Shown here in pieces: positions 39,272 to 54,582 of a stretch of 64,000 nucleotides of DNA. This DNA is from Novosphingobium lentum NBRC 107847 (GTDB taxonomy: Bacteria > Pseudomonadota > Alphaproteobacteria > Sphingomonadales > Sphingomonadaceae), in contig NZ_BCTW01000002.1 of assembly GCF_001590965.1 (NCBI RefSeq), positions 124,001 through 188,000 of the forward strand, read 5' to 3'. The notes below the pieces were generated by a model. It did no database searches. It was not told the origin of the DNA and worked only from the letters and a program-made list of their open reading frames with translations. The number at the start of each line of letters is the position of its first letter. Position 1 is the first letter of the stretch. A program made the translations under genes and the position numbers.

Positions 39272-39346
39272 GCGGGCGTAGCTCAGTGGTAGAGCACAAC
39301 CTTGCCAAGGTTGGGGTCGAGGGTTCGAATCCCTTCGCCCGCTCCA
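39272..39346 (+). tRNA. tRNA-Gly (anticodon GCC)
   Basis: The acceptor arms GCGGGCG (39272-39278) and CGCCCGC (39336-39342) pair fully, followed by T and an encoded CCA (39344-39346). The D arm is AGCTCAGTGGTAGAGC. The anticodon stem CAACC/GGTTG holds the loop TTGCCAA with GCC at 39304-39306. The T arm is GAGGGTTCGAATCCCTT. All cloverleaf features are present. The accessory region starts immediately behind its 3' end, so this gene is probably the integration target. Confidence 0.97.
39324..39346 (+). other. putative element attachment site in the tRNA-Gly 3' end
   Basis: Tyrosine integrases commonly recombine in the T arm and acceptor end of tRNA genes and leave the tRNA intact on one side. 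The chromosomal gene order ends at this tRNA and mobile-element genes follow, so the last 20-25 bases of the tRNA are the likely attL/attR core. The direct repeat that should mark the other end was not seen within the window. Confidence 0.4.
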
Positions 39347-39411
39347 GTTTCCATAGAAAAATCAATAACTTTGGAACCTGCGCCGTTTGCGCCAAGGGCT
39401 CTCGCTAGCTT

Positions 39412-39455
39412 TGGTCAACACCTGGTCAACACGGGTGCCATGCGTGTTGACCAGG
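39412..39455. repeat. triple TGGTCAACAC repeat with 13-base inverted arms
   Basis: TGGTCAACAC occurs at 39412-39421 and again at 39423-39432, offset by 11 bases or one helical turn. Its inverse GTGTTGACCA is at 39444-39453. The second and third copies lie in perfect 13-base inverted arms, CCTGGTCAACACG (39421-39433) and CGTGTTGACCAGG (39443-39455). Its place 66 bases from the tRNA end fits integrase arm sites or an excisionase/regulator operator. Confidence 0.75.
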
Positions 39456-39872
39456 GAATTCTCTGTCTACGAGACTTCAGGAACCACATTTCACCAATTG
39501 CTTACTGCGAGGGGAATGCCTTCCCCTGACCCGGAATCGGCATTGCTGTTTCCGGCTACCCCATCATGCGGGGATACCCCGCAACGCCCCGGCAAGAAGA
39601 GCGTGGCTGTCGACGCGCTCTGTCCCGCAGGCCGTTCGGCCTACTCCTGAGGGCGCAGCTTTGATGAGAATGGCCCCGCACGCACTCTGAATCGGCCGGC
39701 ATGGGATCACCGGCAGGCTTAGAAAGCCGACAAGCCCCGGCTTTCCATCTGCTCGGGACGGGTCACGAACTCCGCCTCCTTTCAGGGTGCAGTTTCTTGT
39801 TCTTGTGATCTCGCTGGTCGCTCGTGCATCTGTAAGCACGAGTAGGTCAAAGTGAGAGGCATGCGGGCTTCG

Positions 39873-39925
39873 CCGTGACGGATTGAGAATGGCAGAGGGA
39901 GAGGCCCGCTGCCGGTCCGTCGCGG
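39873..39925 (+). promoter_or_regulatory. structured leader of ardC, sequestering its ribosome site
   Basis: CCGTGACGGA (39873-39882) pairs with TCCGTCGCGG (39916-39925), ten pairs including one T-G. An inner stem GGCAG/CTGCC (39891-39895 with 39909-39913) is capped by a GA-rich loop. The GG of the Shine-Dalgarno GGAG (39924-39927) is in the outer stem, nine bases before the ATG, so folding would reduce translation. Confidence 0.55.
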
Positions 39926-39935
39926 AGATTTTGCC

Positions 39936-40826
39936 ATGACCGAGACCCGAGCCGACGTCTATTCCCGCATCACCGATCAGATCATCGCCGCCGTCGAGGC
40001 CGGTGCGGTTTCGTGTCGTATGCCTTGGCACCATGATGGGACGGCCACGTCCCGCCCCATCAATCTGGCTTCCGGCAAGCCCTACCGCGGCATCAACGTC
40101 CTGGTCTTGTGGGCGACAGCCGATGCCCACGGTTACACGCAAGGGCTCTGGGGCACTTATCGCCAATGGCTGGCCGTTGGCGGACAAGTACGGAAAGGCG
40201 AACGCGGCTGCGTTGTCGTCCTGTGGAAGCAGATCACCAACGGCGACGATGGCGATGAGCGCATTGAGGGCGAAGGCCACGGCCGTCGCGCCTTCGCGCG
40301 GGCATTCACCGTTTTCAATATCGCTCAGATCGATGGCTATACGTCCGAGCCTATGGAGGCCTGTTCCGAACCAGAGAGCCACGCCAACGCGGAAACCTTC
40401 ATCGCAAATCTTGGCATTTCGACGATCTTCGGCGGCAACGAAGCCTGTTACCTGCCCTCGAAGGACGAAATTCACATGCCGCACCGTGCGCAGTTCGATG
40501 ACGCCGCTTCATTCTATGGAGTCATGATCCATGAATGCGGTCACGCCTCTGGTGCCAAGCATCGACTCTCGCGCGATCTCAGCGGTCGCTTCGGGTCCGA
40601 GGCATATGCTGCCGAGGAAATATGCGCCGAGCTGACCAGCGGGTTCGTGCTGGCGGATCTCGGCATCGCCCATAATCCCCGGCCCGACCATGCAGCGTAT
40701 ATCGCCTCCTGGTTGAAAGCCCTGAAGCATGATCCCCGTGCAATATTCCAGGCAGCGAGCAAGGCACAAGCTGCTGCGGACTGGATGCACGCACAGCAAG
40801 TGGGGGCTCTCGATCAGGCCGCGTGA
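39936..40826 (+). CDS. ardC: ArdC-type antirestriction / zincin metallopeptidase protein
   Basis: This 296-residue protein joins an N-terminal ArdC-like single-stranded-DNA-binding domain (about 1-125; RADVYSRITDQIIAAVEAG, RGINVLVLWATADAHGY, GERGCVVVLWKQ) to a zincin-like peptidase domain (about 145-290). The latter has HECGH (199-203) and a following KHRLSRDLSG with an EEICAEL segment holding a likely third ligand. ArdC proteins of conjugative plasmids protect incoming DNA from restriction and can bind single strands. It is the first gene of the element and is expected early after transfer. The Shine-Dalgarno sequence GGAG is partly buried in a leader stem. Confidence 0.9.
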   Translation: MTETRADVYSRITDQIIAAVEAGAVSCRMPWHHDGTATSRPINLASGKPYRGINVLVLWATADAHGYTQGLWGTYRQWLAVGGQVRKGERGCVVVLWKQITNGDDGDERIEGEGHGRRAFARAFTVFNIAQIDGYTSEPMEACSEPESHANAETFIANLGISTIFGGNEACYLPSKDEIHMPHRAQFDDAASFYGVMIHECGHASGAKHRLSRDLSGRFGSEAYAAEEICAELTSGFVLADLGIAHNPRPDHAAYIASWLKALKHDPRAIFQAASKAQAAADWMHAQQVGALDQAA

Positions 40827-40841
40827 CTGCCATCTGTTGAT

Positions 40842-40933
40842 CCGGGCAATGCCCGGGGGAGAGTAAGAGGGGGGCCTTCGGCTTTGTGACGGGTCAGGGT
40901 CGGGAGAGAGGCTCCTGGCGGCCCGTCATGGAG
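40842..40933 (+). promoter_or_regulatory. structured leader of the ParB-like gene
   Basis: A small hairpin CCGGGC/GCCCGG (40842-40856) is followed by a GA-rich run. Then GACGGG (40888-40893) pairs with CCCGTC (40922-40927), and weaker T-G pairs reach into the Shine-Dalgarno GGAG (40930-40933). Inside, GGAG/CTCC (40903-40906 with 40912-40915) presents AGAGG. The plan repeats that of the ardC leader. Confidence 0.5.
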
Positions 40934-40941
40934 AAAATACC

Positions 40942-43056
40942 ATGGCAAGTTCTGTTCCCAAGCTCCGCCTGAGCAGTTCGCGCGACATCCCGTTCGACAA
41001 GCTCGTTCTCAGCCAGTCCAACGTCCGGCGCGTGAAATGCGGCGTCTCTATCGGCGAACTGGCCGATGACATCGTCCGCCGCACGCTCCTCCAGAGCATC
41101 AACGTCCGGCCCATGCTCGATGATGATGGCAAGGAAACCGGCATATTCGAGGTTCCCGCCGGCGGCCGGCGCTTCCGCGCCCTCGAACTGCTGGTCAAGA
41201 CCAAGCGGATGGCGAAGACCCAGCCAGTGCCCTGCGTGGTGCGCGAGGGTGGCAGTGCGGAGGAGGATTCCCTCGCCGAGAACGTCATGCGCGAGGCGTT
41301 GCACCCTCTTGACCAGTTCCGCGCGTTCAAAGCGCTTCGCGAGCAAGGCACGTCCGAGGATGAGATCGCGGCGCGATTCTTCGTCACTGCCAGCATCGTC
41401 AAGCAGCGCCTGCGCCTGGCCTCGGTGTCCGAAGCCTTGCTCGAAGTCTATGCCGAGGACGGCATGACGCTCGACCAACTGATGGCGTTCAGCATTTCGT
41501 GCGATCATACGCGCCAGGAGCAGGTCTGGGCCGATGTTGGGCAGACATACTCCAATCAGCCTTACAATATCCGCCGTCTGCTGACCGACGAGGCCGTGCC
41601 GGTGAGCGATCGCCGTGCCCGCTACGTCGGTATCGCGGCGTATGAGGAAGCTGGCGGCACGATCATGCGCGATCTGTTCACCATCGACCAGGGCGGCTGG
41701 ATGCAGGATGTTGCACTTCTCGACCGGCTGGTTTCCGAGATCCTGAGCGAGACGGCCCATGCGATCGCCAAGGAAGGCTGGAAATGGATCGAGGCTGCAT
41801 CCGATCTGCCTTACGGCCATGAATTCGGCCATCGCCGAATCACCGGCACGGTCGAGGCGTTGAGCGAGGTCGATCAGGCTGCTTGCGACGTTCTCATGGC
41901 CGAGTTCGACGAGTTGACCGGACAATATGACGGCGGGGATGATCTGCCCGAGGAAGTCGACGCCCGGCTCGGCGAATTGGAAACCGCCATCGACGGCTAC
42001 CTCAATCGGCCTGCCACCTATGACAAAGCTCAAATGGCGCGGGCAGGCGTTTTCATCTCGCTGGCCGGCAATGGCGTGCTGCGGATCGATCGCGGTTATG
42101 TCCGGGCCGAAGACGAGCCTGTCGTTGATGCCGAAACTGGCGAATTGGCGGATGATGCCAGTGCAGTCGGACCGCAGCAGCCGAACGTGACCATTGGCGG
42201 ATCGGCGTTCGCTGCCGAACCGGTCGAGGAGGAAGACGATGTCATCCGGCCATTGCCAGAACGGCTGGTGACCGAACTGACGGCGGAGCGCACCCTGGCG
42301 CTTCGCAATGCCCTGGCCGAAGCTCCGGAAGCTGCGTTCATCGCGCTGCTCCATGCGCTGTGCCGTTCGGTCTTCACGCCGCATGCCGCCTCGGGCTGTG
42401 TCGAGATCTCTGTGCGGCACGCCTTTCTTGGCAATGTGGCTCCGGCCCTCGGCGATAGTGTCTGGGCGCAGGCAATCCAGCAGCGTCATAAATCCTGGGG
42501 TGACATCCTGCCTGATGATCCCGACCATCTCTGGGACGTGCTGAGCTCAATGGACACGGGCGATCACATGCGGCTGCTGGCGCATTGCACCGCGCTCAGC
42601 GTCAATGCGCTCTACGAACCAGCGAACCGCTACAATCAGGGCCATGTGTCGGCGCACGGCGTCAGCAAGCGACTTGCGTCAGCAGATCATATCGCCCGCA
42701 CCATCGGACTCGATATGGCACGGGCAGGCTGGCAGCCGACCATCGCCAACTACCTCGGCCGGGTCACCAAGCCGCGCATACTTGACGCGGTGCGCGAAGC
42801 CCGGGGCGAAGAGATGGTCGGGCTGATCGATCATCTGAAGAAGGGCGACATGGCGAAGGAGGCCGAACGCCTACTCGACGGCAGTGGCTGGCTACCTGAA
42901 CCGTTGCGGGTTGTTGCAGTCGAGGCTGAGCAGGTGACCGATGTGACGACGGTCGAAGACCTGCCAGCCTTCCTCGCTGACGACGATGCTGGCGATGGCG
43001 ATGAACCGACTGACGAAGAACTCGACCCTGAGCATTACGCCATCGCGGCTGAATAG
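40942..43056 (+). CDS. large ParB/RepB-like DNA-binding protein
   Basis: This 704-residue protein has a ParB N-terminal domain (about 10-180). Landmarks are IPFDKLVLSQSNVRRVK, the box PAGGRRFRALELL (CTPase/Srx-type fold) and ENVMREALHPLDQFRAF. A helix-turn-helix follows (SEDEIAARFFVTASIVKQRL). The remaining 500 residues are helical and acidic (EDDVIRPLPERL; the C-terminus DDAGDGDEPTDEELDPEH) and are not found in chromosomal ParB. There is no parA nearby, so it may be a regulator or DNA-organising protein of the element and not a classical partition factor. This large form is typical of alphaproteobacterial plasmids and ICEs. Confidence 0.88.
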   Translation: MASSVPKLRLSSSRDIPFDKLVLSQSNVRRVKCGVSIGELADDIVRRTLLQSINVRPMLDDDGKETGIFEVPAGGRRFRALELLVKTKRMAKTQPVPCVVREGGSAEEDSLAENVMREALHPLDQFRAFKALREQGTSEDEIAARFFVTASIVKQRLRLASVSEALLEVYAEDGMTLDQLMAFSISCDHTRQEQVWADVGQTYSNQPYNIRRLLTDEAVPVSDRRARYVGIAAYEEAGGTIMRDLFTIDQGGWMQDVALLDRLVSEILSETAHAIAKEGWKWIEAASDLPYGHEFGHRRITGTVEALSEVDQAACDVLMAEFDELTGQYDGGDDLPEEVDARLGELETAIDGYLNRPATYDKAQMARAGVFISLAGNGVLRIDRGYVRAEDEPVVDAETGELADDASAVGPQQPNVTIGGSAFAAEPVEEEDDVIRPLPERLVTELTAERTLALRNALAEAPEAAFIALLHALCRSVFTPHAASGCVEISVRHAFLGNVAPALGDSVWAQAIQQRHKSWGDILPDDPDHLWDVLSSMDTGDHMRLLAHCTALSVNALYEPANRYNQGHVSAHGVSKRLASADHIARTIGLDMARAGWQPTIANYLGRVTKPRILDAVREARGEEMVGLIDHLKKGDMAKEAERLLDGSGWLPEPLRVVAVEAEQVTDVTTVEDLPAFLADDDAGDGDEPTDEELDPEHYAIAAE

Positions 43057-43107
43057 CTCCCACTGATCCGGGGCGGCTTCCGACGCTCCGGCATCTATTT
43101 CACCTTG

Positions 43108-43138
43108 CGCCCTCGGCCCCATCAGCCGGGGGCGTTTT
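43108..43138 (+). terminator. terminator-like hairpin inside the operon
   Basis: CGCCCTCGGC (43108-43117) pairs with GCCGGGGGCG (43125-43134), ten pairs with one T-G, then TTTTC. It lies between the ParB-like gene and the next gene, whose Shine-Dalgarno AAGGAG follows within 15 bases. It can act as a terminator or attenuator. Confidence 0.65.
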
Positions 43139-43156
43139 CATTTCAAGGAGCCAATC

Positions 43157-43669
43157 ATGGCCAATTATTACACACCCATTGTTGTCCAGCAGGCAATCCC
43201 TGCCATCGACCTCACGGCCCTGGAACGCCTGTTGCTTGCTGAGATCTTCGACATGCAAATCGATGACGACGCCCTCTACCTCTGCAGCGACGAAGGCGTA
43301 TCCGACATGCTCTATCTGGATGTCGAAAAGCTGCGGCCTTGTCTTGATGATCCCGCTGCGGAGAGCACCACGGCATGGAAACAGATCGTCGACCAACATG
43401 GCACAGCCGTGCTTGGCGACGGCGAGATCGAGATCGACGCATCAGGCGGCTGGTGGGAAAACATCCTTCAGGACGTGGTCCGCCGCTCCGACACGCTCGA
43501 CCATCTCTCGGTGATCGCGTCGTTCACCTGCGACAAGATGCGCCCCGATGGCTTCGGCGGCATGGCCATCTTGATAACCGCTGACCAAACTCGCGGGCAA
43601 TCGACCCATGATCTGATGGCGCAGTTCATCGCCGAGGCTGTCGCTGCGGGCGAAATGCAGCCGATCTGA
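43157..43669 (+). CDS. element protein of unknown function (170 aa)
   Basis: The 170-residue acidic protein starts MANYYTPIVVQQAIPAIDLT behind a good AAGGAG. It looks globular, with alternating strands and helices, a WWENILQDVVRR segment in the middle and a helical C-terminus. There are no membrane segments or catalytic motifs that I recognise. It sits within the eight-gene rightward cluster, between two hairpins. I cannot name a family; homologues are probably confined to similar mobile elements. Confidence 0.75.
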   Translation: MANYYTPIVVQQAIPAIDLTALERLLLAEIFDMQIDDDALYLCSDEGVSDMLYLDVEKLRPCLDDPAAESTTAWKQIVDQHGTAVLGDGEIEIDASGGWWENILQDVVRRSDTLDHLSVIASFTCDKMRPDGFGGMAILITADQTRGQSTHDLMAQFIAEAVAAGEMQPI

Positions 43670-43702
43670 CCAGCCCTCTATTACAGGATTTTAATCGCGT
43701 TC

Positions 43703-43726
43703 GCCCGGCCCTGTGCCGGGCTTTTT
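43703..43726 (+). terminator. terminator-like hairpin inside the operon
   Basis: GCCCGGC (43703-43709) pairs with GCCGGGC (43715-43721) around CCTGT and is followed by TTTTT. This is a canonical intrinsic terminator between two same-strand genes. The next gene's Shine-Dalgarno TGGAGA follows 8 bases later, so it may be an attenuator. Confidence 0.75.
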
Positions 43727-43746
43727 GCGTTTTATGGAGACCAATC

Positions 43747-44220
43747 ATGTCCGCACTGCATATTTTCGAGCACGCACCCCTTGGCGCGCTCATCCGTTTC
43801 TCGGACGGCGAACCTCGGCCGCCTGCGCGCTTCAACCGCAAGCTCTCCGCATGGGAGAATTATAACGGCACGGGCAGGTTGACCGCGAAGCAACCGCGCC
43901 GACTGATCGGCAGTCACTGGATGCCAGCGGGATTTCAGCTTCATCTGGGCGACTATGGCAGCGGCGGTATTACGATCATTGTCGTCACCCGCCATTACCA
44001 GCTTGCCAGCCCGCTCGCCTTCGAAATAGTCGAAGTTCCGCTAGCCGGCATGGTCCGTGTACTGACCGAATGGAACGGCGCTATCGAGATGCGGCACCTG
44101 GCCGCCAACATGGCGTCCGCCGAGGCCTGGGCAGCTGACCACCGCTATTCCGACATGCGTTTCGAGGTCGTCGAAGCCGATGAAGCCAATCGCTTCGATC
44201 AACTGCGGAGGGCGGCATGA
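43747..44220 (+). CDS. element protein of unknown function (157 aa)
   Basis: The 157-residue protein starts MSALHIFEHAPLGALIRFSD with the Shine-Dalgarno GGAGA eight bases upstream. It is predicted beta-rich in the first two thirds (RLIGSHWMPAGFQLHLGDYG; GITIIVVTRHYQL) and helical at the end. Its last four bases overlap the next gene (ATGA), so the two are coupled. No family is recognised. The leader sequence before the ATG (GACCAATC) resembles that of the preceding unknown gene (GCCAATC), which hints at shared translational control. Confidence 0.75.
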   Translation: MSALHIFEHAPLGALIRFSDGEPRPPARFNRKLSAWENYNGTGRLTAKQPRRLIGSHWMPAGFQLHLGDYGSGGITIIVVTRHYQLASPLAFEIVEVPLAGMVRVLTEWNGAIEMRHLAANMASAEAWAADHRYSDMRFEVVEADEANRFDQLRRAA

Positions 44221-45038
44221 GCAACGCACCGTCCATCACGGCCATGTTCGCACGAACCGCCGAAGGTCATCTCGCAGCGCAGGTCGATGATCTGGGCTGG
44301 CTCGCCATTCCCGTGGTGGGCGGCCTACGGATGGCGAGCGCCTGGCGTTTGTCCAAACCTATCGGCACATGGGTGTCTGCCGACTTCTATGGTGCCGACG
44401 GGTTCGTAGCCGACGAGATAGCCTTCCGTACCCATGTTGAGGATGTCGCCCAGCACAAGCGCGAATTGGCTGTGCTGTCTCGCCCTGAAACGGGGATGCG
44501 GGTCGGAACGCCGTGGGGAACCTCACAGCAGAGTTACCACTACGCTGACGGCATTCTCTGCCATTCGACGGCAGGGCATGGCGGATTTTACCTCGGTAGT
44601 GAACGCAACGCATCGGTTCATGCCATGTGGCGAAACGGCGATGGCTGGTATGAGGAGGATGCTGAATGGGCCAAAGTCGCATTCAGCTTTCCTCGCCTGT
44701 TCACCACCCGCGAGCGGCGATGTGCGGCTGAAACGCTGTGCAATGATTATCCCGATGTCTGGGAGCACATTCACGGCGTGACGCTGGCACCGGGTGAATC
44801 CCGGGTGAAGGATGAACGGCAGTTCCGGCAGCGCCATGCGGCCGACTGGATTGTCGTCTCCGCGATCCAGTCGGATCGCCATCCCGGTTTCATTGAATGT
44901 GTCGCCAAAATTGGCGGCAATCGGTCACTGGCAGACGAACGGCTCTATCTGGTGCCTGGACACGAATATCAGGCCGGACGCTTTGGCTTCGTGATCGACG
45001 AGCGCGAACATCAGCGGTTCGAACCGCAGGCGGCTTGA
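44217..45038 (+). CDS. element protein of unknown function (273 aa)
   Basis: The 273-residue protein shows no signal peptide or membrane helix. An N-terminal segment, LAAQVDDLGWLAIPVVGGLR, and a YHYADGILCHSTAGHGGFYL stretch near residue 107-126 are the most distinctive parts. The latter, followed by ERNASVHAMWRNGDGWYEED, is an H/G-rich motif that could be a functional site. Similar proteins accompany ParB-like and Strawberry-notch genes in alphaproteobacterial elements (from memory, not checked). It overlaps the preceding gene by four bases and is followed by a terminator-like hairpin. Confidence 0.7.
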   Translation: MSNAPSITAMFARTAEGHLAAQVDDLGWLAIPVVGGLRMASAWRLSKPIGTWVSADFYGADGFVADEIAFRTHVEDVAQHKRELAVLSRPETGMRVGTPWGTSQQSYHYADGILCHSTAGHGGFYLGSERNASVHAMWRNGDGWYEEDAEWAKVAFSFPRLFTTRERRCAAETLCNDYPDVWEHIHGVTLAPGESRVKDERQFRQRHAADWIVVSAIQSDRHPGFIECVAKIGGNRSLADERLYLVPGHEYQAGRFGFVIDEREHQRFEPQAA

Positions 45039-45061
45039 ACAAGTCCAACAACATATCCTTG

Positions 45062-45092
45062 ATGCCCGCCATCGGTTTCCGGTGGCGGGCAT
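45062..45092 (+). terminator. terminator-like hairpin after the 273-aa gene
   Basis: ATGCCCGCCA (45062-45071) pairs with TGGCGGGCAT (45083-45092); an inner CGG/CCG pair closes the loop, and TTTCTGTG follows. The stem is strong, the T-run is weak. It lies at the start of the 190-base leader of the helicase gene. Confidence 0.6.
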
Positions 45093-45108
45093 TTCTGTGT
45101 GTGCCGAT

Positions 45109-45199
45109 CCGCGGCCGCATTGCGGCCGCGGCCAGAGCGAGAGGGATGCCCCGGAAGGGCGAGCCTGCCGGTTGAGAGAAAGACCGCGCGGGCTTGCCC
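45109..45199 (+). promoter_or_regulatory. structured leader of the Strawberry-notch-like gene
   Basis: Two further hairpins follow. The first is CCGCGGCCGC (45109-45118) with GCGGCCGCGG (45122-45131) around ATT. The second is GGGCGAGCC (45157-45165) with GGCTTGCCC (45191-45199), nine pairs with one G-T. Inside the second, CGGT/ACCG (45169-45172 with 45183-45186) presents TGAGAGAAAG. The Shine-Dalgarno AAGGGA comes 16 bases later and is free. Confidence 0.55.
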
Positions 45200-45228
45200 G
45201 TTCACCGCTCTTTCAAGGGACTTCCCAC

Positions 45229-48200
45229 ATGACCAATTCTGCCTCTGCCGCCGCACCGGCGGCCGCTTCGCTCGCGCCTGCAGTTTTCCCATCGTCCTCC
45301 GATGCGATCATCGCGGCTGCATCAGCTCTTTTGCCCCACCTTGAGCGCGGTTCTGCCATCAATGCCGCGACATTGCGGTCCGCCATGGAAACTGCCTTTG
45401 GCGGCTCCGATGCTGAGGGGCGCTGGGACTGGAAAACCGCCTATGAGGCCTGCGAGGTTGCGCAGATACTGTTTCTCCGCAAGTTCGGCCCGGCGCTCGC
45501 CCGACATTCCGGCAATCCTGCCGCACTGCTCGCGATGATCGAAAAGATCACGCGGCTGTTCCCGACGCACACGCGCCGTTCGCAGTCGGGGCAAGCACTC
45601 CAGCAGTTCAGCACGCCGGTCGGCCTTGGCACGGTTGCTGCCATTGCCGCCGCCATCACACCGACCGACGTGGTGCTCGAACCTTCAGCGGGAACGGGCC
45701 TGCTGGCGATCCATGCCCAGCGGGCAGACGCATCGCTGGTGCTCAACGAATTTGCCGACACGCGGGCCGAACTGCTGGAACACCTGTTTGGCGGGGTGGT
45801 TGTCACCCGGCACGATGCCGCGCAGATCGACGACTATCTCGACCCCGCCATTCGTCCCAGCGTCGTGCTGATGAACCCGCCATTCTCCGCGATGGCCCAT
45901 GTCAATCACACGATGAAGGATGCGGCACTTCGCCATCTGTCGTCGGCTTTGGCACGGCTCGCCGAGGGTGGCCGTCTCGTCGCCATCACCGGCGCAGGTT
46001 TCGGCCCAGAGATGCCTATATGGCGCGATGCGTTCATCAAGCTGCAGGAGCGCGGACGCGTGCTGTTCAGCGCCGCCATCGACGGCCGGGCTTACGCCAA
46101 ACACGGCACCTCGGTTTCAACCCGGCTGACCGTGATCGACCGCGTTCCCGCAGGTGATCCCGCTGTCTTCCCGGCATCACCCGGCACAGCACCGGATACG
46201 GCCACACTCCTCACCTGGGTTCTGGAACATGTCCCGGCGCGTCTCGAAGTGTCGGGTGCAGTCTGTGGCCGAGTGCCGGCATCAAGCATTCTGCCGGTGC
46301 CCGCAAAAGCGGCACGAGCAGGAAACCCGCCAACCCCGCAGCCAGTGCGGATCATCCCGCCGACCGAAGCCCACGAGCTGGACTATGCGGTCAAGGATTG
46401 GGTGCCGGAACAGACCGTCCAACTGACTGATGCTATTTACGAGCCCTATGCGCTCCAGTCGCTCAGCATCATCGGCGCGCATCCGCATCCGACCGCTATG
46501 GTGCAATCAGCGGCCATGGCGTCCGTCGCACCGCCCAAGCCGACATATCGTCCGCATTTGCCAGCGCGAATCGTAAGCGATGCCATGCTGTCCGATGCGC
46601 AGCTTGAATCGGTGATCTATGCCGGTGAAGCGCATTCCGGCTTCCTGTCCGGCGCCTGGACGGTCGATGCGACCTGGGACAAGATCGAGGCTGCACCCGA
46701 CGATTCCGAAGCCGCGGTCCAGTTCCGGCGTGGCTGGTTTCTGGGCGATGGCACCGGGGCTGGCAAAGGTCGTCAGGTCGCCGGGATCATCCTCGACAAC
46801 TGGCTGAAAGGCCGCCGGCGCGCTCTGTGGATCTCGGTGTCCGACCGCCTGCTCGAAGATGCGCAGCGCGATTGGTCGGCGTTGGGGCAGGAGCGCCTGC
46901 TGGTCACGCCCTTGTCGCGCTTCAAACAGGGCAGTCCGATCAAACTGGGGGATGGCATCCTGTTCACCACTTACGCGACTCTGCGTTCGCAGGATCGTGG
47001 TGACAAGGTCAGCCGTGTCCAGCAGATCGTCGATTGGCTGGGCGCTGACTTTGACGGCGTGATTATCTTCGATGAAGCCCACGCCATGGCCAATGCGGCG
47101 GGCGGCAAAGGCGGCAGGGGCGATCAGGCTCCCTCCCAGCAAGGCCGCGCAGGGCTGCGGTTGCAACATGCGCTTCCGGGCGCTCGCATTGTCTATGTCT
47201 CGGCGACGGGCGCGACCACGGTGCAGAATCTGGCCTATGCCCAGCGGCTCGGGCTTTGGGGTGGCGAGGATTTTCCCTTCGCGACACGGCCCGAGTTCGT
47301 CGCGGCAATCGAGGACGGCGGAGTGGCGGCGATGGAAGTTCTCGCCCGCGACCTCAAGGCACTCGGGCTCTATGCGGCACGTTCGCTGTCGTTCGACGGA
47401 GTTGAATATGAGATGGTCGAACATGCCCTGACCGAAGAGCAGACCCGCATTTACAATGCCTATGCCGGGGCGTTCCAGGTGATCCACAGCAACCTCGACG
47501 AGGCGCTGGGCATCACCAACGGCAATCTCAATTCTCAAGCCAAGTCGGCGGCACGTTCGGCCTTCGAATCCGCCAAACAGCGCTTCTTCAACCACCTTAT
47601 CACTGCGATGCAGACGCCGACGTTGATTGCCAGGGCCGATGCGGATCTGGCAGCGGGCCATGCCGCCGTCATCCAGATCGTCTCGACCGGAGAAGCCCTG
47701 ATGGAACGGCGGCTCGCCGACATCCCGACCGATGAGTGGGACGATATTCAGGTCGATATAACTCCGCGTGAATATGTGCTCGATTACCTGGCGCACAGCT
47801 TTCCGGTGCAACTCTACGAGCCCTTCACCGACGGCGAGGGCAATCTGTCCTCGCGTCCGGTCTATTCGGATGATGGGCAGCCGGTTGAATCCCGCGATGC
47901 AGTCGAACGGCGTGACCGCATGATCGAAAAGCTCGCCAGCCTGCCGCCGGTGCCTGGCGCGCTCGATCAGATCGTCCAGCGTTTTGGCACCGACATGGTG
48001 GCCGAGGTGACGGGCCGGTCTCGGCGTATCGTTGCCCGCACCCGCGATGATGGCACCACGCGCTTTGCCGTCGAGAACCGGCCTGCTTCCGCCAATCTCG
48101 GCGAGACCCAGGCGTTCATGGACGATGAGAAGCAGATCCTTGTCTTTTCCGACGCCGGCGGCACGGGCAGATCGTATCATGCCGATCTCGGTTGCCGGAA

Positions 48201-49587
48201 CCAGCGCTTGCGGGTCCACTATCTGCTGGAATCGGGCTGGAAGGCCGACAGTGCGATCCAGGGCTTCGGGCGCACCAACCGCACCAATCAGGCGCAGCCG
48301 CCGCTGTTCCGTCCGGTCACAACCAATGTGAAAGCGCAGAAGCGCTTCATCTCGACCATTGCCCGGCGGCTCGACACGCTCGGGGCCATTACGCGCGGCC
48401 AGCGGCAGACCGGCGGACAGAACATGTTCCGCCCGGAGGACAATCTGGAATCGCATTACGCTCGCGATGCTCTGCGTCAGCTCTACCAGCTGATCGTGCG
48501 CGGCAAGGTCGAGGGCTGCTCGCTGGGGCAGTTCGAGGCGGCTACCGGTCTCCAGCTGATCGATGGCCAGGATGGCGGTCTGCGCGATGAACTTCCGCCG
48601 ATCACCACCTTCCTCAACCGGATGCTGGCGCTCACCATCGACATGCAGGACATCTTGTTCACCGCGTTCGAGGGCTTGTTGGCCACCCGGATCGAGGGCG
48701 CGATGGCCAGCGGCACCTATGAAATGGGGCTGGAGACGCTAATCGCAGAGAGCTTCACTGTCACCGACCGGCAGACCATCTATACCCATCCCGGCACCGA
48801 GGCCGAAACGCGGTTGCTGACCATCGAGCAGAAGCATCGCAACGCACCGCTGTTGCTGGCCGAAGCGCTCGACCATGCCCGCGAGCCGGGAGCGGTATTA
48901 CTGGTCAACAGCCGCTCGGGCCGGGCTGCCGTGCAGACCGGCGCGCGCAGCGTGATGCTGGATGATGGTGCGGTCGAAAAGCGTGTCCGGTTGATCCGTC
49001 CAATGGAAAGGACGAACATTCCCCGCGAAGCCATGGACCAGACCCATTGGGAACATGCCGATCAGGCTGCCTTCGCTAAAGCCTGGAATTCCGAGGTCGC
49101 CGATGTGCCCGAGTTCGTGACCAGTTCGCTCCACATCGTGACCGGCTTGCTCCTGCCAATCTGGAAGAGCCTGCCGAATGAATCCTCGCGGGTGTACCGC
49201 CTCCAGGCCGAGAGCGGCGAGCGCATCGTCGGCAGGCGGGTATCGCCCGCATGGGTGGCGGCAACGCTTGGTGCCAAAGCCCCCGAACTTACTGCCGATC
49301 AGGCTTGGACAATGCTGATGGCGGGGGAAGCCGCACTGCATCTGGCCGAGGGGCAAGTGCTGTCCCGTGTCCGGTCGATGGGCACGCCGCGCATTGAACT
49401 CACTGGATTCAACGACCTCGGCGTCGAGCGCTTGAAGGCGCTGGGGCTGATCTCCGAGATCATCTCGTGGAAGCTGCGTCTGTTCGTACCGACGGGCGCT
49501 GATGGGCTGCAGATCCTCGCCAAACTGATCGAACGCTTCCCCATCCAGAAAGTCACTGACCGCCGCAGCGACGCCAGAGCCGCCTAA
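45229..49587 (+). CDS. Strawberry-notch-like methylase/SF2 helicase fusion protein
   Basis: This 1452-residue protein combines a DNA-methylase-like domain with a large superfamily 2 helicase. Residues about 145-250 show LEPSAGTGLLAIHA (SAM-binding) and MNPPFSAMAH, the NPPF catalytic motif of N6-adenine methylases. The helicase has Walker A GDGTGAGKGRQVAGIILDNW near 505, DEAHAM near 614, VSATGATT near 655, and a C-terminal part with SDAGGTGRSYHADLG near 975 and QGFGRTNRTNQAQ near 1010. This is the plan of bacterial Strawberry-notch homologues. The ATG at 45229 has AAGGGA upstream; frames further upstream lie in the leader. It probably remodels or modifies element DNA after transfer. Substrate and activity are untested. 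Confidence 0.88.
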   Translation: MTNSASAAAPAAASLAPAVFPSSSDAIIAAASALLPHLERGSAINAATLRSAMETAFGGSDAEGRWDWKTAYEACEVAQILFLRKFGPALARHSGNPAALLAMIEKITRLFPTHTRRSQSGQALQQFSTPVGLGTVAAIAAAITPTDVVLEPSAGTGLLAIHAQRADASLVLNEFADTRAELLEHLFGGVVVTRHDAAQIDDYLDPAIRPSVVLMNPPFSAMAHVNHTMKDAALRHLSSALARLAEGGRLVAITGAGFGPEMPIWRDAFIKLQERGRVLFSAAIDGRAYAKHGTSVSTRLTVIDRVPAGDPAVFPASPGTAPDTATLLTWVLEHVPARLEVSGAVCGRVPASSILPVPAKAARAGNPPTPQPVRIIPPTEAHELDYAVKDWVPEQTVQLTDAIYEPYALQSLSIIGAHPHPTAMVQSAAMASVAPPKPTYRPHLPARIVSDAMLSDAQLESVIYAGEAHSGFLSGAWTVDATWDKIEAAPDDSEAAVQFRRGWFLGDGTGAGKGRQVAGIILDNWLKGRRRALWISVSDRLLEDAQRDWSALGQERLLVTPLSRFKQGSPIKLGDGILFTTYATLRSQDRGDKVSRVQQIVDWLGADFDGVIIFDEAHAMANAAGGKGGRGDQAPSQQGRAGLRLQHALPGARIVYVSATGATTVQNLAYAQRLGLWGGEDFPFATRPEFVAAIEDGGVAAMEVLARDLKALGLYAARSLSFDGVEYEMVEHALTEEQTRIYNAYAGAFQVIHSNLDEALGITNGNLNSQAKSAARSAFESAKQRFFNHLITAMQTPTLIARADADLAAGHAAVIQIVSTGEALMERRLADIPTDEWDDIQVDITPREYVLDYLAHSFPVQLYEPFTDGEGNLSSRPVYSDDGQPVESRDAVERRDRMIEKLASLPPVPGALDQIVQRFGTDMVAEVTGRSRRIVARTRDDGTTRFAVENRPASANLGETQAFMDDEKQILVFSDAGGTGRSYHADLGCRNQRLRVHYLLESGWKADSAIQGFGRTNRTNQAQPPLFRPVTTNVKAQKRFISTIARRLDTLGAITRGQRQTGGQNMFRPEDNLESHYARDALRQLYQLIVRGKVEGCSLGQFEAATGLQLIDGQDGGLRDELPPITTFLNRMLALTIDMQDILFTAFEGLLATRIEGAMASGTYEMGLETLIAESFTVTDRQTIYTHPGTEAETRLLTIEQKHRNAPLLLAEALDHAREPGAVLLVNSRSGRAAVQTGARSVMLDDGAVEKRVRLIRPMERTNIPREAMDQTHWEHADQAAFAKAWNSEVADVPEFVTSSLHIVTGLLLPIWKSLPNESSRVYRLQAESGERIVGRRVSPAWVAATLGAKAPELTADQAWTMLMAGEAALHLAEGQVLSRVRSMGTPRIELTGFNDLGVERLKALGLISEIISWKLRLFVPTGADGLQILAKLIERFPIQKVTDRRSDARAA

Positions 49588-49638
49588 CGCCGCCGATTTG
49601 CTCATCGTCAAACGACCAGCATAATCGGGAAGGTCATC

Positions 49639-50679
49639 ATGGAAAAACCCGCAACCCAGATCGCACACCGTCTCGGCCAACAGGCCGAGGCGGTGTGTCG
49701 TCATTATCTCTCCAAGGGCTACCGCGAGGGGCGCTATTGGCTGGTTGGCGATGTTCGCAACCAGCCGGGGCGCAGCCTCTATGTCCGGCTCGTCGATATG
49801 GAAAAGGGACCAGCCGGAAAATGGACCGACGCGGCCACCGGCCAGCACGGCGACCTGCTCGACATCATTGCCCTGGGTCAGGGGTACCACCAGCTACGAG
49901 ATGCGCTCGATGAAGCCCGCCGCTTTCTGAGCCTGCCCATGCCGACAGTTGACGCAGACCAACATCGGGATCGGCCCAAATCCAAAGTGCCAGCGGGATC
50001 GCCAGCCGCAGCACAGCGGCTGTTCGCAGCATCCAAGCCAATGCGCCGCACAGTTGCAGAAACCTATCTTCACCGCCGGGCGATCATGACCCTGCGGGCG
50101 ACAGACCCGCTGCGCTTCCACCCGCATTGCTACTACCGGCCCTCGAAAGACGATGCGCCGGGCACCCGCACGGCATGGCCAGCCCTGATTGCAGCGGTCA
50201 CCGATCTGGATGGCAATACGACCGGCGTGCATCGGACGTGGATTGATCCGGACGCTTTGATCAAGGCCCCGGTCGCATCACCGCGCCGTGCGATGGGCAA
50301 TATCCTCGGACACGCCATCCGGTTCGGCATTGCGGACGATGTCATGATCGCGGGCGAGGGCATCGAGACCATGCTGTCGCTACGTGAGGTCATGCCCGCT
50401 ATGCCGCTGGCTGCAGCCACGTCATCCGCACATCTCGCGGCCATCCTGCTCCCGGCAACGCTCAAGCGCCTCTATGTCGCACTCGACAATGACCCGGCAG
50501 GCCATGCGGCAGTGACGACATTGACGCAGCGCGCAGAACCAATCGGGATCGAGGTCATTCCTCTGGTGCCGCTCCTGGGCGACCTCAATGACGATTTGCA
50601 GGAGCGAGGTTCCCGCCAACTGGCGCTCGATCTTGTCGCCCAGCTTCACCTGGCGGATGTAGGGCGATTCCTCGAATGA
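49639..50679 (+). CDS. Toprim-domain primase-like protein
   Basis: This 346-residue protein has an N-terminal region resembling CHC2-lacking plasmid primases (RLGQQAEAVCRHYLSKGYRE; KWTDAATGQHGDLLDIIALG) and a C-terminal Toprim fold (about 225-330). That part carries the metal-binding Glu in MIAGEGIETMLSLREV and the Asp pair in LYVALDNDPAGHAA. TraC/DnaG-like relatives make primers on transferred single strands. No zinc-finger Cys cluster is visible, so it may need a partner or act in recombination. It is 51 bases after the helicase gene with GGAAGG as ribosome site. Confidence 0.85.
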   Translation: MEKPATQIAHRLGQQAEAVCRHYLSKGYREGRYWLVGDVRNQPGRSLYVRLVDMEKGPAGKWTDAATGQHGDLLDIIALGQGYHQLRDALDEARRFLSLPMPTVDADQHRDRPKSKVPAGSPAAAQRLFAASKPMRRTVAETYLHRRAIMTLRATDPLRFHPHCYYRPSKDDAPGTRTAWPALIAAVTDLDGNTTGVHRTWIDPDALIKAPVASPRRAMGNILGHAIRFGIADDVMIAGEGIETMLSLREVMPAMPLAAATSSAHLAAILLPATLKRLYVALDNDPAGHAAVTTLTQRAEPIGIEVIPLVPLLGDLNDDLQERGSRQLALDLVAQLHLADVGRFLE

Positions 50680-51004
50680 CCGGGCAATGGCCGGGAAGGG
50701 AAGAGAAGTTTCGGGTCCGGGTCTGTGATTACCTGGCTCCGGCATCTTGCCTGCCTGAGAGAGCCGCGCGCACGGCCTTCTGCAAGGGCGATCTGAGAGA
50801 CCGGATGGGCCGGGCCTGCAACGGCGGGCGGCCACTATTTTCCGTCGGCGCAAACGCGCCTTTACACCGCGAAGCAAAATAGCCGCCGCCCGCCGTCCTT
50901 CGCTGACGCTGCGGCCGCAAGGGTGCAGGCCCGTCCCATCCGGCCAAGAGGATCGCCACGAAGGCCGAGCGTGACGCGCGGTCACAGCAGCGAAGGATCA
51001 GCCG
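50680..51004. other. 325-base gap with large nested inverted repeats
   Basis: No gene is supported. Outer arms at 50801-50820 (CCGGATGGGCCGGGCCTGCA) and 50924-50943 match with one mismatch. Inner arms at 50822-50841 (CGGCGGGCGGCCACTATTTT) and 50876-50895 match with two or three mismatches, closing a 34-base loop. A 28-base insertion with the palindrome GCGGCCGC (50911-50918) sits in the right side. The beginning (50680-50712) repeats the CCGGGCAATG plus GA-rich run found before the ParB-like gene. It could be a structured RNA leader, an origin or a protein-binding cruciform. Confidence 0.7.
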
Positions 51005-51937
51005 ATGGGAACCGATATTCACGAAGATTTTGAACCCGAACACGAGGCATCCCCGACCAGCCATTTGCTCGACGAACTCAGCCTCTATGGCTACCGGCCC
51101 TTCTCCGATGAAGCTGACACAAGACCGCTGCCAGAAGAACGGATGGTCGCAGGTGCCATCTCCGACATCTTTGACGCCCTGATCGCGACAATGCTCGACA
51201 CCAGGCTCGAACCCGATCTGGAAGATCTGTGCTGGTCGGTCACCAATGTCTTCCATCGCGCAGGCAGCCGTATCCAGCGCGAGCTTGACGACAATGAAGA
51301 TGCGCAGAAGCGTAGCCAGAAGGAACAGGATGGCTCCGAAGTGCGATCGGTCGAACTCGAGCGGCACTTACGCGAAGGTCTGGGGCTCATCGAACGCCGC
51401 AACAGCATGGAGTTCATGCGCGAAGCCGCTGGCGATCAGTTCGAACGTCATTTCCGCAAGAGCTGGGCACCGTATAGCGGCTCACTCGTCAATCATCGCA
51501 CTATGACCGCATCGATGGTCGACAGCCGGGATTTTCTTGCCGCCAAGCGCAAGTCCGAAATCGAACCACTGCTTCCCACGGGCACGCGGGTCGCATTCAC
51601 CGCAGGGCCGGCCTATGACGATCACCGCAAGATCTGGGCAACGCTCGACAAGGTGCTCGCCAAATATCCCGACATGGTCCTGTTCCACGGCGGCAATCCT
51701 ACTGGCGGCGAACATATCGCAGTGCTCTGGGCCAACGCCCGCAAGATCACCCACTATCCGTTCCGGCCGAACTGGGACCGCTTCAAGAAAGCCGCGCCGT
51801 TCAAGCGCAATGACCAGATGCTCGAAGCCCTGCCCAAGGCGGTGATTGCCTGCCCTGGCAATGGCATCAATGCCAATCTGGTCGACAAGGCCCGCAAGAT
51901 GGGGATCAAGGTTTGGTCGATCGAGAAGGGAGGGTGA
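51005..51937 (+). CDS. DUF2493 (YspA, SLOG-like) protein
   Basis: The 310-residue protein has a helical N-terminal half (about 30-160, many charged residues) and a C-terminal SLOG/Rossmann-like domain (about 190-305). The latter shows TRVAFTAGPAYDDHRKIWAT, MVLFHGGNPTGGEHIAVLWA and VIACPGNGINANLVDKARKM. GGxxxGG and PGNG are the ligand-binding loops. This matches DUF2493/YspA cpYpsA-related proteins, thought to bind nucleotides or nucleotide-like signals. It closes the cluster and is headed by the large inverted repeat. The ATG has GAAGGATCAGCCG upstream. The role in the element is unknown. Confidence 0.88.
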   Translation: MGTDIHEDFEPEHEASPTSHLLDELSLYGYRPFSDEADTRPLPEERMVAGAISDIFDALIATMLDTRLEPDLEDLCWSVTNVFHRAGSRIQRELDDNEDAQKRSQKEQDGSEVRSVELERHLREGLGLIERRNSMEFMREAAGDQFERHFRKSWAPYSGSLVNHRTMTASMVDSRDFLAAKRKSEIEPLLPTGTRVAFTAGPAYDDHRKIWATLDKVLAKYPDMVLFHGGNPTGGEHIAVLWANARKITHYPFRPNWDRFKKAAPFKRNDQMLEALPKAVIACPGNGINANLVDKARKMGIKVWSIEKGG

Positions 51938-51962
51938 TGGATCTGGACCTTGAAAGTACCAC

Positions 51963-51991
51963 CGAGCAAATTTGACTATGTGGTTTGCTCG
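51963..51991. terminator. hairpin at the end of the cluster
   Basis: CGAGCAAA (51963-51970) pairs perfectly with TTTGCTCG (51984-51991). It stands 26 bases after the DUF2493 stop and lacks a T-run, so a Rho-dependent or protein-bound end is possible. A second inverted repeat TGTCCCA/TGGGACA follows at 52032-52053, before the metal cluster. Confidence 0.45.
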
Positions 51992-52059
51992 ACGAAATAA
52001 TGCTGTCGTGTGGGCGCTCCTGTACCGATGCTGTCCCATCAATTACTGGGACAAGCCCC

Positions 52060-54582
52060 CTAGCCCAATACAACTGCGACTGGCGCATTCTCGCGATCCT
52101 TGAAGGCGAGAAGCCGCAACGCGTTGAACACGACCACCAGTGTCGAGCCTTCGTGGGCAAGCACTGCTGGTCCGATACCCAGGCCCAGGATTGTCGCCGG
52201 CAGCAGCACCGTAACGACACCAAGGCTCAGATACAGGTTCTGGCGTATGATCCGGCTCGTCTGGCGGCTTAGTCCCACCGCGAAAGGTAAATGTGCGAGG
52301 TCGTCTGCCATAAGGGCGACGTCCGCAGTCTCAAGGGCCACGTCCGATCCGGCCGCTCCCATCGCGATGCCAACTGTGGCGTTCGCCATCGCCGGCGCAT
52401 CGTTGACTCCGTCGCCGACCATTGCGACCTTGTCTTGCGCCTTCAGCTTCTTGATGGCGGCAACCTTGTCCTCGGGCATGAGTTCGCCCCAGGCTTCGTC
52501 GAGCCCCACCTGCTTCGCAATCGCGTCGGCAACGCGCTGGTTGTCGCCCGAGATCATGATCATGCGTGTTATGCCGAGTTCGCGCAGGCGCGCGAGCGTC
52601 GCGATCGCCGCGCTGCGCGGCGTGTCCATCAACCCGATCACGCCAAGATAGCGCGTCCCCTGCCTGACGATCATGGTCGTTCGGCCTGCCTCCTCGAGGC
52701 GCTGGCCTTCATCTCGCAACCCTTGGGGAAGCGGCTCGCCTGCTACTTCGCCGAACAATTTGGGGCTGCCGATGAAGACTGTCTCGCCTTCTACCGTCGC
52801 CTGCACGCCGCGACCGGTAATGCTGCGCAACTCCGTGGCCGTTGGAATGGGTATTTCGCCGAGCCGCTCGCGCCCCCCGACGGCAACCGCAGCGGCGAGC
52901 GGGTGGTCGCTCAATCCCTCGACCGCGACCGCAATGCGAAGCAGATCGGCTTCAGTCGTGTCTCCCATCGGGATCACATCGGTGATGCGCGGTCGACCTT
53001 CTGTCAGCGTGCCGGTCTTGTCGAAGGCGATGGCGCGCAAAGTGCCGAGATTTTCGAGTGGGCCGCCACCTTTGACGAGCACCCCGCCACGCGCGGCCCG
53101 GGCGATACCCGAGAGAACCGCGCTTGGCGTCGCGATTGCCAGCGCACAGGGACTTGCCGCCACCAACACAGCCATTGCACGGTAAAAGCTGTCGCGGACT
53201 GGTTCATCAACCACGACCCACGCGAACAGCAGCAGACCGACGAGAGCCAGTACGGTCGGCACGAAAATGCGCTCGAAGCGATCCGTAAAGCGCTGTGTCG
53301 GCGATTTCTGCGCCTCGGCCTCGCCAACCATCTGTACGACCTTGGCGAGCGTGGTGTCCTTGGAAAGCCGCGTTACCTGCACTTCGATTGCGCCCGCGCC
53401 GTTGATTGTGCCCGCGAAGATCCGATGCGCCGCCGCAACCTTGTCCGGCTGCGCCGTTGCCGCAGGCAGGTCATCAACGGGACTCTTGTCTACTGGAATA
53501 CTCTCGCCAGTTACCGGCGCCTGATCGACGCTCGATTCGCCGACCACCACGAACCCGTCCGCAGGCATGCGTTCATTGGGCTTGACGACTACGACGTCGC
53601 CGACTGCAAGCGCGTCGACGGGGATTTCCAGAGTTAGGTCGCCGCGTCGCACGAGCGCGGTTTGCGGCGCCAGTTCGGCGAGGGCCTCGATAGCCCGCTT
53701 GGCCCGGCCCATCGCATAATGTTCGAGTGCGTGGCCGAAGCTGAAGAGAAAAAGCAGCAACGCGCCTTCCGCCCATGCGCCGAGCGCTGCCGCGCCGGCT
53801 GCGGCGACAAGCATCAGGCTGTCGATTTCGACCTGGCGGTTCCGGAGCGAGTCAATTGCCTCGCGCACCGTAAAGAATCCGCCAAAACCATAAGCGGCGA
53901 CATAGAAGCCAAGCGGCAACCATTCAGGGGCGGCGGTCGTCACCGAGATCAGAAAGCCCACGCCGAGCAAGGCACCACAGATCAACGCGAAAATCAGTTC
54001 GGTATTGGACCCGAATACCCCGCCATGGGCGTGTGCGTGGTCGCCATCTTCCGCGCCGGCGCCATGGTCATGCCCCGCATGGGCCGTGTCAGCGGCGTGC
54101 GTTGCCGGGGCTGCCGACGGAGCCTCACCAGATAGGGTGCTCGCATAGACGCCCAACTTGCCGAGCAGCCGTTCGATTTCGACTTCGGAGATCTTGTCGC
54201 GGTCGAAATCGATGCGCACCACACCAGCTGCCGATGCATCGGCCTCAACTATGCCAGGTGCGCGGAGTAGCCGTCCGGCGACGGTGCGGGCGCGCCGCGG
54301 GTTGGACAGCCCATCCACATTCCAGAGCAGATGACCAAATCGCTCGGTAATCTTCACGCCCTCGCTTTGGGCAATCTCGCGAATTCTTGGTAACGAGAGC
54401 AGGTCGGGATCATAGTGGACGCAAAGCCTCGCCGGCTCTTCGCCTGCCGCCGCTACTATATGGGCGTTGCGGACGCCCTCTCGGGCGCTCAAGCTCTTCA
54501 CCAGCCGCGTAACGCATGCGTCCGCCGCGCCATCGATTTCAGGTAGCAGCAGCGGCAGTTCGAGACGGAGCTTTGCGGTCAT
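52060..54582 (-). CDS. czcP: P1B-4-type heavy-metal-exporting ATPase (CzcP-like)
   Basis: This 840-residue inner-membrane pump has Pfam-like E1-E2 ATPase parts. TGES is in APVTGESIPV, the phosphorylated Asp lies in AFDKTGTLTEG near 520, DHPLAAA is the HP loop, and GDGVNDAPAM is the hinge. The metal-site helix has SPC (ASPCALAIATPSA near 479) in place of CPC, and the last helices carry HEGSTLVVVFNALRLL near 811. SPC plus HEGSxxVxxNxLR defines group P1B-4 (CoaT/CzcP; Co, Zn, Cd). The N-terminus has two degenerate metal-domain-like folds without CxxC and a His-rich linker (162-186). It overlaps czcC by four bases. Confidence 0.93.
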   Translation of the reverse strand: MTAKLRLELPLLLPEIDGAADACVTRLVKSLSAREGVRNAHIVAAAGEEPARLCVHYDPDLLSLPRIREIAQSEGVKITERFGHLLWNVDGLSNPRRARTVAGRLLRAPGIVEADASAAGVVRIDFDRDKISEVEIERLLGKLGVYASTLSGEAPSAAPATHAADTAHAGHDHGAGAEDGDHAHAHGGVFGSNTELIFALICGALLGVGFLISVTTAAPEWLPLGFYVAAYGFGGFFTVREAIDSLRNRQVEIDSLMLVAAAGAAALGAWAEGALLLFLFSFGHALEHYAMGRAKRAIEALAELAPQTALVRRGDLTLEIPVDALAVGDVVVVKPNERMPADGFVVVGESSVDQAPVTGESIPVDKSPVDDLPAATAQPDKVAAAHRIFAGTINGAGAIEVQVTRLSKDTTLAKVVQMVGEAEAQKSPTQRFTDRFERIFVPTVLALVGLLLFAWVVVDEPVRDSFYRAMAVLVAASPCALAIATPSAVLSGIARAARGGVLVKGGGPLENLGTLRAIAFDKTGTLTEGRPRITDVIPMGDTTEADLLRIAVAVEGLSDHPLAAAVAVGGRERLGEIPIPTATELRSITGRGVQATVEGETVFIGSPKLFGEVAGEPLPQGLRDEGQRLEEAGRTTMIVRQGTRYLGVIGLMDTPRSAAIATLARLRELGITRMIMISGDNQRVADAIAKQVGLDEAWGELMPEDKVAAIKKLKAQDKVAMVGDGVNDAPAMANATVGIAMGAAGSDVALETADVALMADDLAHLPFAVGLSRQTSRIIRQNLYLSLGVVTVLLPATILGLGIGPAVLAHEGSTLVVVFNALRLLAFKDRENAPVAVVLG

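Follow-up and report, generated by a model that had tools for sequence, protein, structure and literature searches.

The DNA analysed here, called the window throughout, is a stretch of 64,000 nucleotides from Novosphingobium lentum NBRC 107847 (assembly GCF_001590965.1, contig NZ_BCTW01000002.1, positions 124,001 to 188,000 of the forward strand). It contains a module of genes in the order ardC, parB-like gene, three small genes, strawberry-notch helicase gene, Toprim gene and SLOG gene (Pfam assignments). A first-pass annotation, made from the letters alone, had proposed that structured leaders with GA-rich loops precede the ardC, parB-like and helicase genes. All three leaders are located where it placed them, and their folds outperform those of shuffled sequences (z −3.15, −3.30 and −4.76, respectively). 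Such leaders are carried by ardC, parB-like, strawberry-notch and a few other genes of alphaproteobacterial mobile elements. The proposed family of leaders is supported and has two classes: the ardC and parB-like leaders form one covarying class (class I), and the helicase leader belongs to a related class II. With R1 denoting the class I covariance model and R2 the class II model, the genes and their leaders in the window are as follows.

39936..40826, plus strand: ardC, with ArdcN and MPTase-PolyVal domains (Pfam PF08401, PF18818)
39847..39929, plus strand: class I leader of ardC (R1 67.7 bits, E 8.6e-16 in its own genome; one of the 44 R1 seeds)
39849-39858: GA box of the ardC leader in a variant form, AAAGTGAGAG, absent from the list of the first-pass annotation
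39873-39883 with 39915-39925: outer stem of the ardC leader, 11 pairs in the predicted fold
39900-39904: apical loop of the ardC leader, AGAGG
39924-39927: Shine-Dalgarno sequence GGAG of the ardC leader; ATG at 39936
40942..43056, plus strand: parB-like gene, related to ParB-like genes of plasmid leading regions (PF02195, below cut-off)
40858..40935, plus strand: class I leader of the parB-like gene (R1 69.5 bits, E 2.6e-16 in its own genome; one of the 44 R1 seeds)
40859-40869: 5′ GA box of the parB-like leader, GAGAGTAAGAG, of a type present across the whole family
40882-40895 with 40920-40933: outer stem of the parB-like leader, 14 pairs in the predicted fold
40907-40911: apical loop of the parB-like leader, AGAGG
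40930-40933: Shine-Dalgarno sequence GGAG of the parB-like leader; ATG at 40942
45229..49587, plus strand: strawberry-notch family helicase gene (Pfam PF13872, PF13871; translation from 45232)
45133..45231, plus strand: class II leader of the strawberry-notch gene (R2 55.3 bits; one of the 28 R2 seeds), its final three bases being the ATG
45134-45143: GA box of the class II leader

Read from 5′ to 3′, the class I plan opens with a GA box; ~15 bases further on comes the outer stem, which extends into GGAG, and within it an inner stem with apical AGAGG, the consensus amounting to one hairpin per leader; 8 bases separate GGAG from the ATG in the ardC and parB-like leaders. The outer stem of these two leaders had been described as touching the Shine-Dalgarno sequence, and the contact proves closer than that, with the stem pairing with GGAG itself: in the predicted folds the first two G of GGAG are paired in the ardC leader, and the entire GGAG is taken up by the outer stem in the parB-like leader. 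A related GA motif noted before the parB-like gene is the family-wide 5′ GA box, whereas its supposed counterpart after the Toprim gene (50680) is the start of a separate region, described below. A CCGGGCAATG hairpin immediately 5′ of the GA run is kept in the closest relative (L007), not across the family. The N. lentum genome has four class I matches (R1) in two ardC/parB-like modules; the second module, on contig C9 at ~180–186 kb, carries two leaders of each class.

In the class II leader, a 5′ AGAGCG pairs with CGCUCU 5′ of the start to form a closing stem, and a long inner hairpin presents the loop GAGAGAAA. Helicase leaders can be aligned to one another (alignment A3) and resemble class I in having the GA box and an apical loop of GAGAG type; R1 itself matches about fifteen of them weakly (E 0.002–0.04). 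R2 gives three class II matches in the N. lentum genome and, in 84 sources, 77 matches, 66 of which lie at mapped helicase starts. The other eleven were assigned from translations and annotations. Plasmid records contribute four, at the starts of helicase or helicase-like genes; a gene for a 123-residue protein also accounts for four, other genes have two, and the last coincides with the class I leader of locus L010. The first RNAalifold structure of the helicase leaders contained no compensatory pairs and was dropped in favor of a consensus of single folds; covariation is seen with the latter, on an alignment fitted to that same consensus.

The wider distribution of class I was followed through a protein scan with the parB-like gene product, in which the 80 loci taken are the best 80 of at least 580; they belong to sphingomonads, rhizobia and their relatives, roseobacters, one Caulobacterales genome and others, and their upstream regions carry the same leader. 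Among the genes of these loci with enough upstream sequence, and counting matches that end ≤60 bases from the start, class I is found at 77 of 77 parB-like and 56 of 60 ardC gene starts, and at none of the 52 Toprim and 41 SLOG gene starts. R1 yields 156 strong matches in 86 sources, separated from the next ones by a gap in E from 3e-12 to 7e-4. The class is present in 20 of 289 alphaproteobacterial genomes (N. lentum included) and in 25 of 299 genomes drawn from the phylum, all 25 from the same taxonomic class, the class make-up of the 299 not being listed. One leader used as a query matches 103 plasmid records and no phage record, and one exact pattern matched a single viral contig; at the starts of the parB-like relatives from Pseudomonas, Serratia and pCADAB1 there is no class I match. 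A divergent Rhodobacterales version (L140), 5′ of a ParB-like gene (7911) and of a helicase gene (13191), combines a hairpin bearing GAGAGAG with another, separate one at the Shine-Dalgarno sequence AAGGA, and is matched weakly by R1 (best E 8.6e-6).

The position of class I leaders relative to genes is equally regular. The 223 model matches represent 207 distinct contexts, 200 of which have an open frame starting ≤15 bases away, and in 191 of these 200 the distance from GGAG to the start codon is 7–9 bases. The downstream proteins comprise a parB-like group of 100 and an ArdC group of 67; a further group has 19 members, the one tested giving a DUF932 match below cut-off, and another has six, the one tested being without a Pfam match. 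Three more form a group of apparent wrong-frame readings, and the rest are one pair and three singles. On Sulfitobacter plasmid L119, leaders stand 5′ of a parB-like gene, a DUF932 gene and a radC-annotated gene without Pfam match; before RadC-family genes, class I gives two weak matches only (E 1.4e-3 and 3.1e-3). One leader plan is common to at least six gene families without mutual matches, on mobile elements, a pattern of sequence that points to shared control of the genes bearing it.

Covariation was measured in several alignments that differ in origin. A1 has 121 rows, chosen by a pattern demanding stem parts, GAGAG and GGAG, so that conservation of these letters in it is partly by construction; R1 was built from 44 diverse rows of A1. 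A4 has 69 model-found rows, collected without a pattern from other genomes, the second N. lentum module and two plasmids, and A6 is the class II set. A4, A5 and A6 were fitted to models, for which reason the A4 and A6 alignments favor the modelled structure; A1 was not fitted but pattern-picked, and related rows within an alignment are not independent events. Read with these limits, A1 has 96.9% of cells paired, 10 of 19 pairs changed on both sides and 90 doubly changed cells (26 in shuffles); the corresponding values are 96.1%, 14 of 19 and 80 (22) for A4, and 90.7%, 15 of 25 and 95 (33) for A6. None of 500 shuffles matches any observed covariation measure in these three sets, and the compensatory changes that the first-pass annotation had put forward as the test of its proposal are found in both classes. 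The wobble pairs bear on the nature of the folded strand: A1 contains 310 G-U against 10 A-C cells without the poorly aligned column pair 92–106 (312 against 27 with it), A4 220 against 18 in its 69 rows (207 against 18 in the 65 rows outside A1 and A5), A5 458 against 35, and class II 211 against 56. A folded-DNA function would lead one to expect equal G-U and A-C deviations; since G-U on the sense strand prevails over A-C among the wobbles, it is most probably the RNA form of the leader that is under selection.

Class I has a conserved covarying stem that contains the Shine-Dalgarno sequence, as expected of a cis-regulatory leader hiding it. Both first G of GGAG pair in the predicted folds of 92 of 93 distinct A1 cores, and the hairpin alone has a mean of −33 kcal/mol. 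Over 195 leaders, the mean probability that GGAG is unpaired is 0.16, vs 0.44 with the leader part shuffled (five shuffles each), accessibility being lower than in shuffles in 178 of the 195; GGAG itself is present in 67 of 69 A4 rows and 134 of 135 A5 rows. The conserved unpaired letters of the leaders are chiefly AGAG words, two of them at the 5′ end and a third in the apical loop, where AGAGG and AGAGU are the commonest forms. Of the 134 long rows of A5, 125 keep the first AGAG intact, 122 the second and 132 one in the hairpin part; for the 66 long rows of A4 the counts are 56, 62 and 64. Across 74 related loci, oriented by the parB-like gene (module genes share direction), GAGAG-N-R-AGAG occurs 127 times on the plus strand and once on the minus strand. 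The plus-strand copies include 82 class I boxes, 41 sites ≤260 bases upstream of a helicase gene and four belonging to a third leader of the same plan, the R2-matched one 5′ of the gene for the 123-residue protein. Two other ideas were rejected: a small upstream frame through the hairpin, since hairpin lengths vary by single bases and no frame is kept, and competition between GA box and inner stem in class I, where the inner arms covary mutually and not with the box.

Taken together, we think it rather probable that the leaders are a widespread family of folded mRNA elements at start codons, predicted to hide the ribosome site, and that a putative factor recognising AGAG switches translation. 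The leader would be transcribed, and the outer stem of class I would take up the Shine-Dalgarno sequence directly and hold translation low by default; given the average stability of the hairpins, opening of the stem should need help. In class II the GA box would pair with a CUCU just 5′ of the start, so that binding of the box would open the start-codon region. The putative factor would bind the repeated AGAG, the stem would be released and translation would be turned on. Most likely an AGAG-binding factor is what operates the leader; its nature, sign of action and timing we infer, in that the AGAG words may be the binding site of a protein, the protein may be element-encoded, and the switch may act briefly, around the time when DNA is transferred. 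The first-pass annotation had suggested an RNA-binding protein and a post-transfer burst of expression; both are plausible by analogy because the leader genes resemble those of plasmid leading regions, the set comprising anti-restriction ArdC, ParB-like, DUF932-like and helicase genes. The ArdC of plasmid pSa is described as transferred along with the DNA (PMC5512222); given this and the likeness to leading-region genes, expression could be called for in the donor shortly before the DNA leaves or in the recipient soon after it arrives.

The question of who encodes such a factor is addressed by plasmid pCHQ1, which carries two leader types. Its relaxase-adjoining island has AGAG-plan leaders 5′ of ardC, parB-like, helicase and one more gene (those of the helicase and the additional gene matched by R2, those of ardC and the parB-like gene recognised by eye), and a second island with related genes (L144/L145) has a purine-rich GGGGAGGG 5′ of its parB-like, helicase and Toprim genes. 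This second purine-rich leader type is seen on pCADAB1 as well as in the second pCHQ1 island, and belongs to another element family. Because the pCHQ1 islands carry different leader types, one regulator per island fits better than one shared host factor. We tentatively suggest, as a possibility, that an element-encoded RNA-binding protein reads AGAG and jointly frees the translation of establishment and anti-defence genes around transfer, with other islands using GGGGAGGG and no cross-talk between them.

Several observations weigh against an AGAG-controlled switch. Four of the 60 ardC genes (in L011, L013, L031 and L051) have no class I leader; in class II the Shine-Dalgarno sequence lies outside the conserved stem, which adjoins it; and the class I GA box is on average 57% unpaired. 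A-C cells are commoner in class II than in class I, and the inner class I pair at A1 columns 92–106 has 17 A-C and two G-U cells. The alignment sets, pattern-picked in the case of A1 and model-fitted in those of A4, A5 and A6, are not free of selection. Neither a binding partner for the leaders nor a known RNA-binding regulator among the module genes was found. As to an element-encoded factor, its evidence is one plasmid with two leader types, a small sample judged by eye; neither type stands before the ardC-like gene or the ssb gene in the second pCHQ1 island, and on pCADAB1 (L142) a GGGGAGGGGGGCTGG leader precedes the parB-like and helicase genes and is missing from ardC.

Among the other explanations, it is unlikely that a small RNA carrying CUCU in its loops targets AGAG, which would make the switch one of RNA–RNA pairing instead of protein binding. 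Short purine words fixed in place and more than half unpaired in class I would suit such a target, as would the pairing of AGAG with CUCU in cis in class II; no partner RNA was seen, in an inspection confined to the region beside the SLOG gene and with no dedicated search made, and the consensus of that region lacks CUCU and mostly carries GAG(A)GG itself. The region in question is the one whose beginning had been taken for a leader motif:

50680..51004, plus strand: large conserved structured region, ~325 bases long, flanked by the Toprim and SLOG (DUF2493) genes and outside the leader family

In 37 aligned sequences it has 99 predicted pairs, 36 of them with compensatory changes, and a wobble count of 208 G-U vs 118 A-C; Rfam gives no match to it in the window or in three loci. 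Candidate identities are a large RNA, a SLOG leader and a single-strand DNA origin.

We also regard it as improbable that the leaders merely protect the mRNA 5′ end or fix a constant low translation, with no switch and no partner. The very stable hairpins and the lack of an identified partner agree with this, but neither the AGAG words kept before non-homologous genes (the first in 125 and the second in 122 of 134 rows) nor the two leader types on one plasmid would be needed for it. It is very unlikely that the hairpins act as DNA, be it as Frpo-type single-strand promoters or as protein sites aiding early expression after transfer. Single-strand promoters are common in leading regions (PMC11541004) and the leader-bearing genes are of that type; the tblastn relatives of the parB-like gene carry ParB family annotation, and the Serratia one adjoins psiB and psiA. 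A DNA function would, however, treat G-U and A-C alike, and G-U is far above A-C; the spacing of stem, Shine-Dalgarno sequence and start codon is nearly fixed; and sigma-70-like sites, the only promoter type sought, are at chance level, with none in the window leaders and two elsewhere in the stretch vs 1.6 expected. A better candidate for a DNA element lies nearby:

39511..39590, no strand assigned: palindrome block (GGGGAAnnCCTTCCCC ... GCGGGGATACCCCGCAACGCCCC) 5′ of the first gene of the module, a neighbour outside the leader

This block is common to 33 aligned sequences, with two palindromes that are near-invariant, their letters being partly fixed by the search pattern; for that reason it was discarded as a DNA reference for the wobble count. 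Wherever the exact GA box of the first leader was found in relatives, the block stops 0–6 bases short of it; in the window its end lies 348 bases from the last base of the ardC ATG. The block is a candidate promoter, transfer site or single-strand initiation site. Least probable of all is a role of the GA stretches as ribosome standby sites or of the stem as a thermosensor: the GA box pairs with the 16S tail worse than its permutations do (−7.3 vs −8.5 kcal/mol), so that the likeness to ribosome sites proposed earlier finds no support there; the apical loop pairs somewhat better than its permutations (−7.7 vs −6.2 kcal/mol) and may have such a likeness; and the stem appears too stable for physiological melting.

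The module with its putative mRNA switches is set next to a tRNA gene.

39272..39343, plus strand: tRNA-Gly gene, probable insertion target (Rfam tRNA, 73 bits)
39323-39346: putative left attachment repeat of 24 bases, with a copy 123.4 kb away

The 24-base repeat of the tRNA-Gly 3′ end recurs identically 123.4 kb downstream on the same contig, and a further exact copy is found on another contig. The module begins ~600 bases within the 123.4-kb stretch flanked by tRNA-Gly ends, and a relaxase match lies ~41 kb beyond it on the same strand; because the module sits just inside this tRNA-Gly-bounded stretch with its relaxase match, the window probably contains the left end of a 123-kb integrative element in tRNA-Gly. 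Terminator-like stems with T runs at 43107-43135 and 43703-43721 are found directly 5′ of the small genes at 43157 and 43747; terminator-like sites number eight in the stretch, with 3.7 expected.

The first-pass annotation knew of no matching description, and we likewise found none. Rfam gives no match at the leaders at gathering cut-offs in the window, at E ≤5 in 39345-52300 or at E ≤1 in loci L038, L085 and L019, weak matches to 5.8S, S4-Bacteroidia and Hsp70 families being far below their cut-offs. A literature search of open papers returned no description of AGAG leaders, the motifs of a 2017 survey, which reportedly comprised 224 structured RNAs, having been compared via Rfam alone. In translational autoregulation leaders such as those of ribosomal proteins, a hairpin sequesters the Shine-Dalgarno sequence and a protein decides; unlike these, the AGAG plan is common to at least six unrelated gene families on mobile elements. 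Targets of CsrA/RsmA have a purine motif in hairpin loops and a site at the Shine-Dalgarno sequence; their apical word is GGA, whereas AGAG leaders usually carry AGAG.

By gene context, the nearest analogues are the radC and STAXI RNAs. The radC motif is said to be placed before radC, integrase, methylase and antirestriction genes. It is likewise a candidate structured RNA of Proteobacteria (RF01754; PMC2864571), and its model of 149 positions has no match in the window or in three loci; a search of 142 alphaproteobacterial genomes gave none, a result of little weight since the control genomes were silent too. STAXI (RF01728), which lies near single-strand-binding, topoisomerase, antirestriction and integrase genes and for which an RNA function is argued, consists of tandem pseudoknots with frequent UUCG loops in Enterobacteriales (PMC2864571); our leaders are one hairpin each, with no Rfam match. 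Frpo/ssi elements are also structured and also stand 5′ of leading-region and anti-defence genes (PMC11541004), but they are DNA with −35/−10 elements in the stem, whereas the leaders keep sense-strand G-U and hold the Shine-Dalgarno sequence. Finally, the serC, speF, suhB, ybhL and metA motifs of Corbino 2005 are alphaproteobacterial leaders as well, the last hairpin of serC being near the start codon (PMC1273637); they serve other genes and are deposited in Rfam, which has no match at AGAG leaders.

The records bearing these leaders include plasmids of root-nodule and pollutant-degrading bacteria. Control of plasmid leading-region genes has been placed at the promoter level, through Frpo (PMC11541004). 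If the AGAG leaders are indeed mRNA switches, they would constitute a second, RNA-level layer of control, common to unrelated anti-defence and establishment genes on alphaproteobacterial plasmids and integrative elements. The combination of AGAG-NR-AGAG and loop would then be a short word that flags such genes without annotation, and it would make testable how a resident element silences its establishment genes.

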